From IMG/VR virus record IMGVR_UViG_3300046694_000215, positions 1 through 48,727 of that record: a DNA stretch of 48,727 nucleotides; one strand, given 5' to 3'. The first letter of the stretch is position 1. The number at the start of each line of letters is the position of its first letter. The notes beneath the pieces are model-generated. The model worked only from the letters and a program-made list of their open reading frames with translations, did not search any database and was not told the origin of the DNA. Positions 12,991-48,727 of the stretch are shown piece after piece. The position numbers were made by a program, and so were the translations under genes. The stretch comes from a virus.

Positions 12991-13849
12991 CGCTATTCCC
13001 CTTTGCGGCCTCTTCGGCCTGTAGACGCGCTGCGAATCGCTCGACAACGGCGCGGTTGTTGCGTTCGAGTTGTTCCTGCTTGCTCACGTACCCGCCCGAC
13101 TGGCGCGGCCCCGCTGTGCGCTGAACCTGTTGCGCAAGGTCATGGGCGCTCGGGCGCTCGCCCGACTGCTCGTTCGCCAACCAAGCCGCTTTGAAGCCGG
13201 CATAGCTGCGTTGTGCGCTGAAGCGAATCGCGTCGTTCAGCGAAACCCCGGCTTTCAATGCCTCGCTCTCGGCAAGTTGCATCGCGCTCAACGTGTTCGC
13301 CTGACCCTTCTGCTTGCGCACTGCAAGCCAGTCGTTGACGTTTTGTTCGTCAACACCCTTGTCGACAAGGTATTTGCGGGCATTGAAGCGCGGCACGCGC
13401 TTATTCTCCGAAGGAGAATCTTCTTCTGGTTCTTGGTTAGTGGTTAGTGGTTTATGGTTAGTGGTTAAGGTTATTTTCGGTTCGCTTTCGCTATCGCTTG
13501 GGTTTCCATTAGAAACCATCTGGGTTTTCTTCGGCCTCCCGCCTCGCTTTCCGTTCTCTCGGTTGGCGTCCGCCTTCGCGCTGTACTGCGCTAGCTCCGA
13601 CTCGCAGCGCTTGTGCATCCACCCGTTTTCGGTCTCTTGAAAGAACTCGCGCAGCACGATTTCGACGGCGTTTTGCTCATCTTGGGTTCTGGCGCATAAC
13701 CGACGAAAAACCAGTTGGGTTTCTTTCGGGAGCGGCTTTTCGTCGAGATAGTAGAGGTCGAGCAGTTGCCGATAGGCGCCGTGTTCGATCAGCGTCAAAT
13801 GCGCTGTCGCCGCCTTGTAATCGCCGATGTGATGTTTGTAGTAGTTCAC
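12977..13849 (-). CDS. DUF1376 (YdaU-like) replication protein
   Basis: 290 residues from a GTG that overlaps the upstream TGA (GTGA). The DUF1376 domain fills residues 1-90: YYKHHIGDYKAATAHLTLIE, then HGAYRQLLDLYYLDEKPLP. A basic, repetitive linker follows (GKRGGRPKK, then LTTNHKPLTTNQEPEE), and the C-terminal domain carries FKAAWLANEQSG. DUF1376 proteins act as phage replication initiators or helicase loaders, like lambda O. The linker is encoded by TTAGTGGTT-type repeats that could double as an origin. Confidence 0.82.
   Translation of the reverse strand: MNYYKHHIGDYKAATAHLTLIEHGAYRQLLDLYYLDEKPLPKETQLVFRRLCARTQDEQNAVEIVLREFFQETENGWMHKRCESELAQYSAKADANRENGKRGGRPKKTQMVSNGNPSDSESEPKITLTTNHKPLTTNQEPEEDSPSENKRVPRFNARKYLVDKGVDEQNVNDWLAVRKQKGQANTLSAMQLAESEALKAGVSLNDAIRFSAQRSYAGFKAAWLANEQSGERPSAHDLAQQVQRTAGPRQSGGYVSKQEQLERNNRAVVERFAARLQAEEAAKGNSDETE
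13434..13473. repeat. GGTTAGTGGTT-type repeats inside the DUF1376 gene
   Basis: TTAGTGGTT occurs three times, interrupted by TTATGG. The repeats encode the linker LTTNHKPLTTNQ. AT-rich repeats inside a replication-initiator gene resemble the layout of the lambda origin inside gene O. Confidence 0.5.
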
Positions 13850-14184
13850 GCGACCGCCCTTGCCGCTTCGAACTCCTGGCGCTCCATTTCTTCTTGGTGC
13901 TCGCGGTAGTTGATCGCGTTGCACAGCGTGTCGAGGTCGACGGCGACGCCGAGCGACATGAAAATGCCGTACTGAAGCACGCGCGCGCTGGCATACGAGA
14001 GGTTCTTTTGCCCGATGCGAACCATCTCGAATCCCCGATAGCTCACGCCCGCGGCTTCGCAAATCGCGCTCATGACACGCGTCCCTGCCTGCTTCCACAC
14101 GCGGTGAGCGGTCAGCGCCGGAAGCGCTCGAATCTGCGCGTCGAACTCCGATGGAACGCCATACATGTTCTTTTGGGATTGCAT
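13846..14184 (-). CDS. Cro/CII-like early regulator
   Basis: 112 residues, first gene of the leftward early operon, transcribed divergently from the CI-like gene. A helix-turn-helix is likely around residues 38-65 (MSAICEAAGVSYRGFEMVRI then GQKNLSYAS). The tail is charged and helical (YREHQEEMERQEFEAARAVA). Position and size suit Cro or a CII-like activator. Its promoter at 14216-14244 is embedded in three AGAGAG repeats. Confidence 0.62.
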   Translation of the reverse strand: MQSQKNMYGVPSEFDAQIRALPALTAHRVWKQAGTRVMSAICEAAGVSYRGFEMVRIGQKNLSYASARVLQYGIFMSLGVAVDLDTLCNAINYREHQEEMERQEFEAARAVA

Positions 14185-14211
14185 TTGTCACCTCTCTCCG
14201 GTAGTCGATGT

Positions 14212-14258
14212 AGAGAGTATAGCCACCCGAAAGAGAGTATGCAAGCGCTGAGAGAGAT
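14212..14258. promoter_or_regulatory. Operator triplet: three AGAGAG(T/A)T repeats
   Basis: AGAGAGTAT at 14212-14220 and 14232-14240, and AGAGAGAT at 14251-14258, are spaced 20 and 19 bp apart, on one face of the helix. They overlap the -10, the spacer and the region upstream of the -35 of the leftward early promoter. The layout is like the tripartite operators of lambdoid phages. Related GAGAG/CTCTC sequences occur at most of the small promoters elsewhere in this genome. Confidence 0.65.
14216..14244 (-). promoter_or_regulatory. Leftward early promoter
   Basis: Minus strand TTGCAT (14244-14239), 17-bp spacer, TATACT (14221-14216): a strong sigma70 promoter for the Cro-like gene and the replication operon. 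It is overlapped by two AGAGAGTAT repeats. Confidence 0.75.
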
Positions 14259-14310: not shown

Positions 14311-14339
14311 TTGCACATGCAGCACCGGCATGATATGTT
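14311..14339 (+). promoter_or_regulatory. Rightward promoter of the CI-like gene
   Basis: TTGCAC (14311-14316), 17-bp spacer, TATGTT (14334-14339). The predicted transcript starts about 40 nt before the CI-like ATG. CCCTCTC follows just downstream and could be an operator half-site. Confidence 0.55.
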
Positions 14340-14380
14340 CCCTCTCATCTGACCGAAAAATAATATCTACCGGAGTTTGT

Positions 14381-14809
14381 ATGGACATCAACGCTATACG
14401 GTTCGCCAACTTCAAAGCTCTGTTCGAGCAGTTCAAAGACATCACCCGCAGAGATGACCCAGGGGCGCCCGAAAAAGGTATGTTGAAGGCGTTCGGCGCT
14501 CGCTTAGGTATTCGTGAGGCATACATGTCGCACATCAACACCGAATACAAGGCAATCGGCCCCAAGACGGCCCGCCAGATCGAAGAGGCGCTAAAGCTCC
14601 CGCATGGCTGGATGGATCAGCAGCACGACGCGAAGCGCGCGCCCGAGCCGGCGCCCACCCAGGATGACGCCGATCATTCCGCGCTCGCGAATCCCACTGA
14701 CGCCGAAGAATTAGAGTTTCTTGAAACAGCGATCGACTTCTATCGGCGCGACCCGCTCGCCGCGCAATCGGCGATCATGCGGGCCATGCGTGCCAAATTG
14801 CACCGCTAA
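14381..14809 (+). CDS. CI-like HTH transcription regulator
   Basis: 142 residues. A Cro/C1-type HTH occupies about residues 10-85: RFANFKALFEQFKDI, then MLKAFGARLGIREAYMSHIN and KTARQIEEALKLPHGWMD. The C-terminus is a short acidic helical domain (ADHSALANPTDAEELEFLE) with no S24 peptidase motif, so SOS self-cleavage is unlikely. Divergent from the early operon across an operator-rich gap, it is the best candidate for the lysogeny repressor. A different sensing mode or an antirepressor would be needed for induction. RBS CGGAG lies 6 nt before the ATG. Confidence 0.7.
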   Translation: MDINAIRFANFKALFEQFKDITRRDDPGAPEKGMLKAFGARLGIREAYMSHINTEYKAIGPKTARQIEEALKLPHGWMDQQHDAKRAPEPAPTQDDADHSALANPTDAEELEFLETAIDFYRRDPLAAQSAIMRAMRAKLHR

Positions 14810-14967: not shown

Positions 14968-15129
14968 ATGTTGAGCGAGCAAAACAGAGCAGTAAAGGGC
15001 CAATTGACGGATGGCGCGCTGATCGAGGCGCCGCGCATGATGACCGAAAGCGAATTCATCGCGGCGTTCAGCACGCTGAGTCTTGAAGAGCGTCGCGAGT
15101 TCATTCGTTGCAACTGCGCAACACATTAA
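14968..15129 (+). CDS. Hypothetical small acidic protein
   Basis: 53 residues from ATG 14968 (AAGGAA upstream), ending with FSTLSLEERREFIRCNCATH. Predicted helical. It has its own motif-bearing promoter beside the repressor gene, so it may be a lysogeny accessory. Family unknown. Confidence 0.6.
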   Translation: MLSEQNRAVKGQLTDGALIEAPRMMTESEFIAAFSTLSLEERREFIRCNCATH

Positions 15130-15149
15130 TTCGTTCGGAGATGTTTCAT

Positions 15150-15190
15150 CTCTCAAAGGTATTGACGGAGGCGGGACACTGGGCTACAAT
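15150..15190 (+). promoter_or_regulatory. Strong rightward promoter preceded by operator motif
   Basis: TTGACG (15162-15167), 17-bp spacer, TACAAT (15185-15190): one of the best promoters in the window. CTCTC-AA-AGGTA (15150-15161) abuts the -35. Transcription would start near 15197. No ORF with an RBS follows, so the product is probably RNA. Confidence 0.7.
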
Positions 15191-15196
15191 TTTGTC

Positions 15197-15276
15197 ATGT
15201 TGAAGTAATCCGTACCGAATCTCTCCGGTAGTACTTGAAGGGGCGTCAGCTTAACGGTTGGCGCCCCTTTCTTTTT
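15197..15276 (+). ncRNA. Putative short terminated RNA (about 80 nt)
   Basis: A transcript from the promoter at 15162-15190 would meet an intrinsic terminator at 15240-15276 after about 80 nt. It encodes nothing (ATG-TTG-AAG-stop only). It contains a hairpin TACCG/CGGTA (15213-15217 with 15226-15230) whose loop and 3' arm reproduce the CTCTC-CGGTAGTA operator-like sequence, then the terminator stem. Position between repressor and accessory region recalls short immunity or decoy RNAs, but the role is inference. Confidence 0.55.
15240..15276 (+). terminator. Intrinsic terminator of the short RNA
   Basis: GGGGCGTCA (15240-15248) pairs with TGGCGCCCC (15259-15267, one G-U pair) around a ten-base loop, followed by TTTCTTTTT. 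Confidence 0.8.
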
Positions 15277-15610
15277 GCCGGTCGCGACACAAGTCCCGAG
15301 TCCACATCGGGCCGACTGATCGGCGTAACCGATCCCTTCGGGTCTCGCGCTTTGTCTGGTGCGCAATGCTCCGCTGTCACCTCTCTCGCGGCCCTCTCCC
15401 CTCGCGGCGGTGATGAGGCGCGAGACCCGAAGGAAATAGGCAAGTGCACCCTTTCCCCGAAGGGCGGCGCGAACAAATGCGCGATCGCGCGAACTGCATC
15501 ACACGACGTCGAACGACGAGAAGCCGGCCAACGGGCCGGCGCCAAGGATCACGGTGAATCTGCGGCATGTAACGGTCGGAAGCCCGTCCAGGTTGACGGG
15601 CACGCCGAAT
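15277..15610. other. 334-bp gene-free region dense in hairpins, candidate structured RNA
   Basis: No gene is convincing here. Stems: ATCGG-GCCGA/TCGGC-CCGAT (306-315 with 320-333 of the 15.3-kb line, GTAA bulge); a perfect 16-bp inverted repeat CCTTCGGGTCTCGCGC (15335-15350) with 15418-15433, enclosing TCACC/GGTGA (15377-15381 with 15409-15413); the palindrome GCGCGATCGCGC (15479-15490); GCCGGCC/GGCCGGC with an AACG loop (15523-15540); GCCCGTC/GACGGGC (15582-15601). CCCGAAGGG at 15456-15464 can also pair with 15334-15342, giving an alternative fold. It could be a structured RNA, an origin or packaging element, or a decayed insert. Confidence 0.55.
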
Positions 15611-15949
15611 TTATCCGAGCGCCTTTTTCGCGCGCGCCTGTAGCGTGCGGATCGCTTCGGGATGGTTGGCGAGGTCATCGCCCCATGAAACGAGCGCCCT
15701 TGCGATTGCGTGAAACTCGCGCGCATTCGCTAGTGCGTTCCGCTTGTCGATGGATCGCTGCGACACCTTGCGCGGCTTGCGCTCGATGCTCGCGAGCGCA
15801 TCGGAAAGTTCTGCCGAGCCTCGTGCTTCGAGCGCGTCGACGTAATGCTCTTTCGGGTTCCTGGCGTAGTCGCCGGGCGCCCCGATCACCTTGCGGTGAA
15901 GCTCGACGAGAATGTGTTTCGGGAGCTTGTCGAGTTGCGGGCGGTTCAT
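15611..15949 (-). CDS. Hypothetical basic helical protein
   Basis: 112 residues, predicted helical and basic (LDKLPKHILVELHRKVIG; ALASIERKPRKVSQRSIDKR; AIRTLQARAKKALG). Its ATG shares one base with the stop of the upstream 42-residue gene (TGATG). Part of the two-gene unit behind the promoter at 16112-16141. No family recognised. Confidence 0.65.
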   Translation of the reverse strand: MNRPQLDKLPKHILVELHRKVIGAPGDYARNPKEHYVDALEARGSAELSDALASIERKPRKVSQRSIDKRNALANAREFHAIARALVSWGDDLANHPEAIRTLQARAKKALG

Positions 15950-16077
15950 CAGTAGTCGTCCATGCGGGCAAAGTGTCGATCGGCTTGCGCTTCGTCGCGT
16001 GCGGCGCGGCGCTCTTCGTCTGTCATCTCTTCTTCGTCGTAGTTGTCGGCTTCGAAGTCGTCATAGTAGCGCAGCAT
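15949..16077 (-). CDS. 42-residue acidic protein
   Basis: Very acidic small protein (MLRYYDDFEADNYDEEEMTD then EERRAARDEAQADRHFARMD). It starts 35 nt downstream of a clear -10 (16112-16117) and is coupled to the next gene. Acidic micro-proteins of this type in phages may mimic DNA or bind host proteins, but nothing specific is visible. Confidence 0.6.
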   Translation of the reverse strand: MLRYYDDFEADNYDEEEMTDEERRAARDEAQADRHFARMDDY

Positions 16078-16111
16078 TTTCGGTCCCTCGCGGTGTTGAT
16101 CCAGTGAGTGA

Positions 16112-16141
16112 ATCATACCGCGCAGAGATTGCAACAGTCAA
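16112..16141 (-). promoter_or_regulatory. Leftward promoter with both shared motifs
   Basis: Minus strand TTGACT (16141-16136), 18-bp spacer, TATGAT (16117-16112). The spacer contains ATCTCTGCGCGGTA. The -35 lies in AACAG-N16-CTGTG (16133-16158). Confidence 0.68.
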
Positions 16142-48441: not shown

Positions 48442-48727
48442 TCGCAGCGCTCGCTTTGCACTGGCGCGCGGCGCTCGTCGCGCTCTTTGCTGCCGCGCTG
48501 TGTGCGCTCGGCTGGCATCTCGGCGCGGCGCACGTCTCCGCGCAATGGTCCGCTGAAAAGGCGGCAACCGCGCAGGCTACGTCGAAAGCGCTCGCCGCGG
48601 CGCTCGCCAATCAACAAGCCGCCGAGTCAAAAGTCTCGGCTATCGAAACGCAGTTCAACGCAGAGGTATCGCAGCATGCGAAAGATGCTCTCGATTATCG
48701 CGCTCGCCTTGCTTCCGGCACTGAGCG
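48438..48727 (+). CDS. Rz: Rz-like i-spanin, N-terminal part (continues at 1)
   Basis: Start ATG 48438 overlaps the upstream TGA. It encodes an N-terminal hydrophobic segment (IAALALHWRAALVALFAAAL then CALGWHLG) and a charged helix, cut by the contig end. Joined at the circular overlap it continues in frame to the TAA at 339-341. A partial copy of Rz1 starts at 48676. Confidence 0.88.
   Translation, partial: MIAALALHWRAALVALFAAALCALGWHLGAAHVSAQWSAEKAATAQATSKALAAALANQQAAESKVSAIETQFNAEVSQHAKDALDYRARLASGTE
48601..48727. repeat. Terminal direct repeat, right copy
   Basis: Identical to 1-127; evidence for a circular molecule of 48,600 bp. Confidence 0.95.

Follow-up and report, generated by a model that had tools for sequence, protein, structure and literature searches.

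A covarying structured RNA in the immunity region of environmental ParA-bearing phages

Genome and locus organization

The window, by which we mean the whole stretch of 48,727 nucleotides analysed here, is the 48.7-kb IMG/VR record IMGVR_UViG_3300046694_000215. Its terminal 127 bases (48601-48727) are a direct repeat of positions 1-127, so the record represents a closed or complete genome, some 48.6 kb long. Among its genes are those for terminase, portal, major head, tail sheath and tape measure proteins. It also has a ParA-like partition gene (484-1131), which recurs with 75-98% identity in 7 of 15 searched records, and contains no match to the tyrosine integrase family. Given the ParA gene, the tail genes and the lack of an integrase match, the phage is probably a phage-plasmid with a contractile tail, and the related group looks alike. 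ARAGORN found no tRNA in the window, and PADLOC found no defence proteins near the RNA locus. The features of the locus are as follows.

13846-14184, minus strand: 112-aa gene without family match, the first in the divergent (lytic/replication) operon
14330-14809, plus strand: gene for a CI-like repressor (PHROG transcriptional repressor, 4.9e-9), located upstream of the RNA locus
14968-15126, plus strand: small gene downstream of the repressor gene
15162-15190, plus strand: sigma-70-like promoter TTGACG-17-TACAAT, kept in all homologues as TTGAC[AGC] / TA[CT]AAT
15197-15276, plus strand: predicted 80-nt sRNA, composed of a hairpin exposing UCUCUC (anti-Shine-Dalgarno loop) followed by a terminator hairpin (15237-15270) and a U tract
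15286-15601, plus strand: structured RNA with 12 helices and 77 consensus pairs (RNAalifold, 14 homologues; the extent is the reach of the conserved helices)
15611-15949, minus strand: 112-aa gene facing the RNA, which it adjoins in the 17 loci recovered with it

The plus strand thus reads, in order, repressor, small gene, promoter, predicted sRNA with its strong terminator, and structured RNA, after which comes the minus-strand gene 15611-15949. On one side the RNA region is limited by the terminator (15237-15275), on the other by the minus-strand gene, whose stop codon lies at 15611. The repressor, which is 29-34% identical to CI-like repressors of Pseudomonas phages, points away from the divergent minus-strand operon, and the RNA locus lies in the immunity region; in that operon, a DUF1376/primosomal replication gene comes after 13846-14184. 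The facing 112-aa protein is conserved across relatives (67-92% identity) and matches no Pfam or PHROG family above chance; it is a possible partner of the RNA.

The fold of the predicted sRNA is strong (z -5.16, reached by 0 of 200 shuffles), and its architecture is maintained in relatives. In all homologues its 5' end (15197-15208) reads ATG NNN NNG TAR (ATGTTGAAGTAA, ATGTCGCGGTAA, ATGTTCAAGTAG), which is possibly a leaderless three-codon frame, or a chance pattern. Candidate repressor operators were also observed, namely a dyad, AGAGATGTTTCATCTCT, at 15145-15161, directly preceding the promoter of the sRNA, and several copies of a ATACTCTCT motif at the divergent promoter near 14210-14240.

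Covariation of the conserved fold

The region between the terminator and the facing gene had been proposed from the single sequence as a candidate new structured RNA. Folded by itself, the plus strand reaches -149.4 kcal/mol (z -2.66, matched by 1 of 100 dinucleotide shuffles), and the minus strand is less clearly separated from its shuffles (z -1.64). The original prediction also held that the region is far denser in structure than other gaps of the genome. This did not hold up in a G+C-corrected energy ranking made against all windows of the genome rather than the gaps alone, since, of 286 other windows of 334 bases, 35 equal or surpass the plus strand in folding and 17 equal or surpass the minus strand. 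A single sequence is therefore insufficient as proof of a structured RNA here; by folding energy alone the region does not stand out in this genome, and the existence of the RNA rests on covariation.

The alignment used for the fold comprises 14 distinct sequences that are 66-99% identical. In the RNAalifold consensus, 22 of the 77 pairs show changes on both sides. Paired cells amount to 97.3%, as compared to 91.7% in shuffled alignments, cells changed on both sides number 74 versus 23, and the covariation score is 0.249 versus 0.138; for each of the three measures, none of 500 shuffles reaches the observed value. As a control, partners slid by 1-3 columns pair in just 34-43% of cells. The structure was derived from the same alignment, so that the percentage of paired cells is biased upward, but this bias does not account for the two-sided changes. 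The helices, all on the plus strand, are as follows.

15295-15311: H1, hairpin CCCGA/UCGGG after the invariant ACACAAGUC (15287-15295); two of five pairs compensatory (C-G/G-C and C-G/U-A/A-U)
15312-15317 with 15574-15579: H2, long-range closing stem CCGACU/GGUCGG; 98.8% of cells paired
15318-15334: H3, hairpin GAUCGG-CGUAA-CCGAUC with an invariant CGUAA loop; three pairs with changes on both sides
15335-15433: H4, the 16-bp inverted repeat around a branched loop with H5 (15357-15373), H6 (15376-15414) and H7 (15388-15403)
15444-15470: H8/H9, stem-loop containing the arm 15456-15464; four of the five inner pairs (H9) covary
15479-15490 and 15523-15540: H10 and H11, hairpins; 99-100% of cells paired, three pairs with changes on both sides
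15582-15601: H12, 3'-terminal hairpin GCCCG/CGGGC; pairs never vary

The helices differ in how severely the alignment tests them. H2 is nearly invariant and hence weakly tested, with one pair varying between U-A and U-G and one broken cell. H3 alternates between G-C and A-U at two positions and between C-G and U-A at a third, and one G-C/G-U change fits the plus strand only. In H4, one position is U-A in eight sequences, C-G in five and G-C in one, and two others covary. The pairs of H9 occur as A-U, U-A, U-G and G-C. Taken together, we consider it very likely (a probability of about 95%) that 15286-15601 encodes a conserved, previously uncatalogued folded RNA, as the original prediction had suggested; the two-sided changes in the 14 homologues, the absence of a conserved protein frame and the lack of an Rfam match all bear it out.

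The perfect 16-bp inverted repeat (15335-15350 with 15418-15433) on which that prediction drew is present exactly in the sequence and corresponds to H4. A 9-bp segment was further said to compete for one of its arms. The literal match exists (15334-15342 with 15456-15464), but it is confined to part of one clade and is lost in the L020-L029, L030 and L061/L062 sequences. Switching by alternative pairing is thus not borne out: hairpin H9, which would have to open, covaries by itself, and the 9-bp competitor is not kept. A riboswitch was rejected in the same way, because the competing helix is not conserved and the next genes (15611-16134) lie on the opposite strand, leaving no cis gene downstream. 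Another long-range match, 15320-15331 with 15597-15608, is not conserved in the homologue alignment and was discarded.

Strand and coding potential

Read on the plus strand, the paired columns contain 113 G-U cells and 4 C-A cells, whereas a fold of the minus strand would need the opposite. When RNAalifold was run on the minus strand, pairs broke at exactly the G-U positions. The abundance of G-U with almost no C-A shows that the folded molecule is the plus-strand RNA, opposite in strand to the facing gene, and rules out a minus-strand RNA.

No frame in the 5' domain shows protein-like substitution; in all six, non-synonymous changes outnumber synonymous ones about threefold. Which open frame is the longest differs from phage to phage, and an indel in L061/L062 breaks the apparent minus-strand frame; a small minus-strand protein was ruled out by the substitution pattern together with this indel. 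The stretch had been described as gene-free, and indeed it holds no conserved reading frame. The pattern named beforehand as contrary to an RNA, lack of covariation together with a conserved frame, was looked for and not seen.

Distribution among viral genomes

The structured RNA also occurs in 18 other IMG/VR viral records, each time between the same two features. Whether started from the facing gene, the repressor, their alignment or, on viral contigs, DNA patterns, the homologue searches converged on the same 18 contigs, in all of which a covariance model scores the RNA at 131-171 bits in the same location; in the window the model matches 15286-15433 with 164 bits. The RNA is missing from L031 and L033, which carry a less closely related repressor and have no relative of the 112-aa gene. 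At blastn sensitivity, neither 50,697 phage records nor 72,556 plasmid records gave a match, and Rfam gave none at the gathering threshold and, with E allowed up to 10, just scores at chance level that stayed far short of the gathering cut-offs. Within the viral, phage and plasmid collections searched, the RNA family is restricted to one group of environmental phages (soil phages) bearing ParA, and it is uncatalogued in Rfam.

Two partial matches were seen besides these. An exact 18-mer of hairpin H3, GATCGGTTACGCCGATCA, occurs in eight other viral contigs (L008-L015) that do not have the rest of the RNA. A second, weak match to the RNA model (28 bits) lies at L017:6697-6839 on the plus strand, about 1.7 kb downstream of the RNA in that contig, and is probably compositional.

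Complementarity to the ribosome-binding site of the divergent operon

In the window, both the structured RNA and the sRNA contain a segment complementary to the leader of the gene that opens the divergent operon.

14186-14205, minus strand: ACUACCGGAGAGAGGUGACA, proposed antisense target, the Shine-Dalgarno region right before the ATG at 14184
15220-15232, plus strand: sRNA segment UCUCUCCGGUAGU, complementary to this ribosome-binding site (RBS; target copy 14193-14205), an exact 13-nt repeat in the window
15375-15387, plus strand: UGUCACCUCUCUC in the branched loop of the structured RNA, 13 nt complementary to the RBS of the 13846-14184 gene

The plus-strand copy of the target leader (14186-14205) reads TGTCACCTCTCTCCGGTAGT. 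The segment of the structured RNA equals its first 13 letters and that of the sRNA its last 13, with a six-base overlap, and the two are jointly complementary to the whole Shine-Dalgarno region of 20 bases. For 15375-15387, none of 200 shuffles gave a match longer than 9 nt, against the 13 nt observed, and the duplex energy of -31.2 kcal/mol is reached by none of 500 shuffles; the segment ranks best or second best among 307 sites of the structured RNA. In the window and in L016, L017, L018 and L019, 15375-15390 is the best or nearly best site for the phage's own RBS (-24 to -31 kcal/mol, reached by 0-3 of 500 shuffles), and L016-L019 retain the segment with G-U pairs where the target has changed. 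Part of the segment is paired inside the RNA, in H6. The sRNA-RBS duplex is matched by 1 of 300 shuffles in the window, by 0-9 of 300 in the window's clade and by 0-1 of 300 in L030 and L061; the pairing is weak in L022, L032, L023 and L062.

The L020-L029 clade has the structured RNA without RBS complementarity, shuffles being equal or better in 200-395 of 500 cases, and in L030, L061 and L062 the complementarity of the structured RNA is marginal. Since the fold is kept where the RBS complementarity is absent, antisense pairing alone cannot be the conserved function, and the conserved fold must have some more general role.

Possible function of the RNA

Antisense repression in the window's clade is, judged from the sequences, a good hypothesis. 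As to the locus as a whole, we tentatively propose, at odds clearly below even, a c4-like antisense immunity or copy-control locus in which the structured RNA is made by read-through. The transcription unit would start at the promoter 15162-15190, with the structured RNA as its distal part. The majority of transcripts would end at the terminator at 15275, yielding the 80-nt sRNA, and read-through would produce a long form carrying the structured RNA. A strong terminator does intervene between this promoter and the structured RNA, and the read-through origin is inferred solely from our finding no other promoter between the two. In the window's clade, both RNAs would repress, by antisense pairing, the gene at the head of the divergent lytic/replication operon. 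The sRNA would cover the 5' half and the structured RNA the 3' half of the 20-nt Shine-Dalgarno stretch, thereby blocking translation of that gene. They may back up the CI-like repressor and help to set plasmid-prophage immunity or copy number, like the c4 RNA of P1. Such control would be useful to a plasmid-like prophage, which the ParA gene and the missing tyrosine-integrase match both fit. The remaining fold may present and stabilize the antisense segment, or bind a protein.

With a substantial chance, if still short of even, the RNA is instead an independent noncoding RNA that acts through its fold (protein-binding, ribosome-binding or self-assembling, as with GOLLD, ROOL and OLE), the complementarity being a local accident or a late addition. 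Every homologue keeps the fold and not every one the antisense segment, the invariant single-stranded ACACAAGUC and the CGUAA loop resemble binding sites, and the long closing stem and many helices fit such a molecule. However, the GOLLD, ROOL and OLE models are unmatched, and a 13-nt complementarity located precisely at the RBS of the operon is hard to obtain by chance.

It is rather unlikely that the element acts in cis within an mRNA, as a structured 3' UTR either of the plus-strand repressor/sRNA transcript or of the minus-strand operon ending at 15611. It does lie directly after the stop codon that ends the minus-strand gene and after the terminator of the unit on the plus strand, and H12, which abuts the minus-strand gene and never varies, may instead be part of the 3' UTR of that gene. 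The G-U pattern, though, excludes minus as the folded strand, on the plus strand the terminator precedes the element, and a covarying fold of 320 nt far exceeds the needs of a 3' UTR.

A role as DNA, such as a single-strand origin, recombination site or packaging site, is highly improbable: the inverted repeat is perfect and the genome replicates as a circle or concatemer, but twenty pairs use G-U on the plus strand with almost no C-A, the mark of RNA pairing, and the record has no tyrosine-integrase match and a long multi-helix fold. A hidden small protein on one strand is scarcely credible, as open frames do exist (for example 15246-15545 on the minus strand) but the six frames change mostly non-synonymously, the longest frame is not constant and the L061/L062 indel interrupts the apparent minus-strand frame.

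Returning to the antisense locus, a more far-reaching version of it is doubtful, although we consider it worth stating. It would be a new class of phage immunity locus, in which two RNAs arise from one promoter by way of a leaky or regulated terminator: a short sRNA directed against the Shine-Dalgarno sequence and a long, folded one, together tiling the RBS of the lytic operon. In every member, the fold of the long RNA would also serve another conserved function (protein or ribosome binding).

Comparison with known RNA classes

Several known classes were tried and rejected. A tRNA, tmRNA or T-arm was considered for H1, as some homologues read GAGUUCAAAUC; H1 is out of T-arm register, its loop varies among homologues (GUCCACA, GUUCAAA, GUCAACA), and ARAGORN reports none. 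A retron ncRNA was dismissed because the whole record has no RVT_1 (reverse transcriptase) match, with positive controls. The low-scoring hits to BjrC68 (15210-15276; 20.3 bits against a gathering cut-off of 39) and ctRNA_p42d (18.7 bits against 50) were probably caught by the terminator hairpin.

The c4 antisense RNA of P1, P7 and their relatives has loops complementary to an RBS and blocks translation (PMC12197685). Like c4 (RF01695), the locus described here places a predicted small RNA in the immunity region of a probable plasmid-like prophage; strong complementarity to the RBS of a lytic-side gene is seen in the window's clade and is weak or lacking elsewhere. Unlike c4, it gives no match to Rfam RF01695 at the gathering threshold or at E up to 10, its proposed target is the first gene of a divergent operon about 1 kb away rather than a downstream antirepressor, its two RNA segments are separated by a terminator, and a 320-nt structured RNA is added. 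The sar RNA of P22 and the OOP RNA of lambda are terminator-ended sRNAs of 68-77 nt near the immunity region that repress a phage developmental gene (PMC12197685). The sRNA predicted here, at 80 nt, is likewise terminator-ended and near the immunity region; in contrast to OOP, which is encoded opposite its target, it is encoded apart from its proposed target and is followed by a large folded RNA.

GOLLD and ROOL are large ornate phage or prophage RNAs of unknown function that were recognised by covariation (PMC12286853), and the structured RNA resembles them in kind, as a phage RNA known by covariation. It differs from them in size (about 320 nt, as compared to 659 to over 800 nt), in context (no tRNA in the window, where theirs is often near tRNA islands) and in lacking any sequence or model match; the Rfam models of GOLLD, ROOL and OLE all failed to match. 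With no model match, it is not assigned to c4, GOLLD or ROOL.

The locus thus holds a family of strongly covarying structured RNAs that is new to Rfam and, at the sensitivities used, to the phage and plasmid collections searched. Should the antisense model be true, the locus would provide a second design of immunity based on RNA, alongside c4, sar and OOP; should the model be false, the RNA would be another ornate phage RNA, whose size of about 320 nt is convenient for structure determination.
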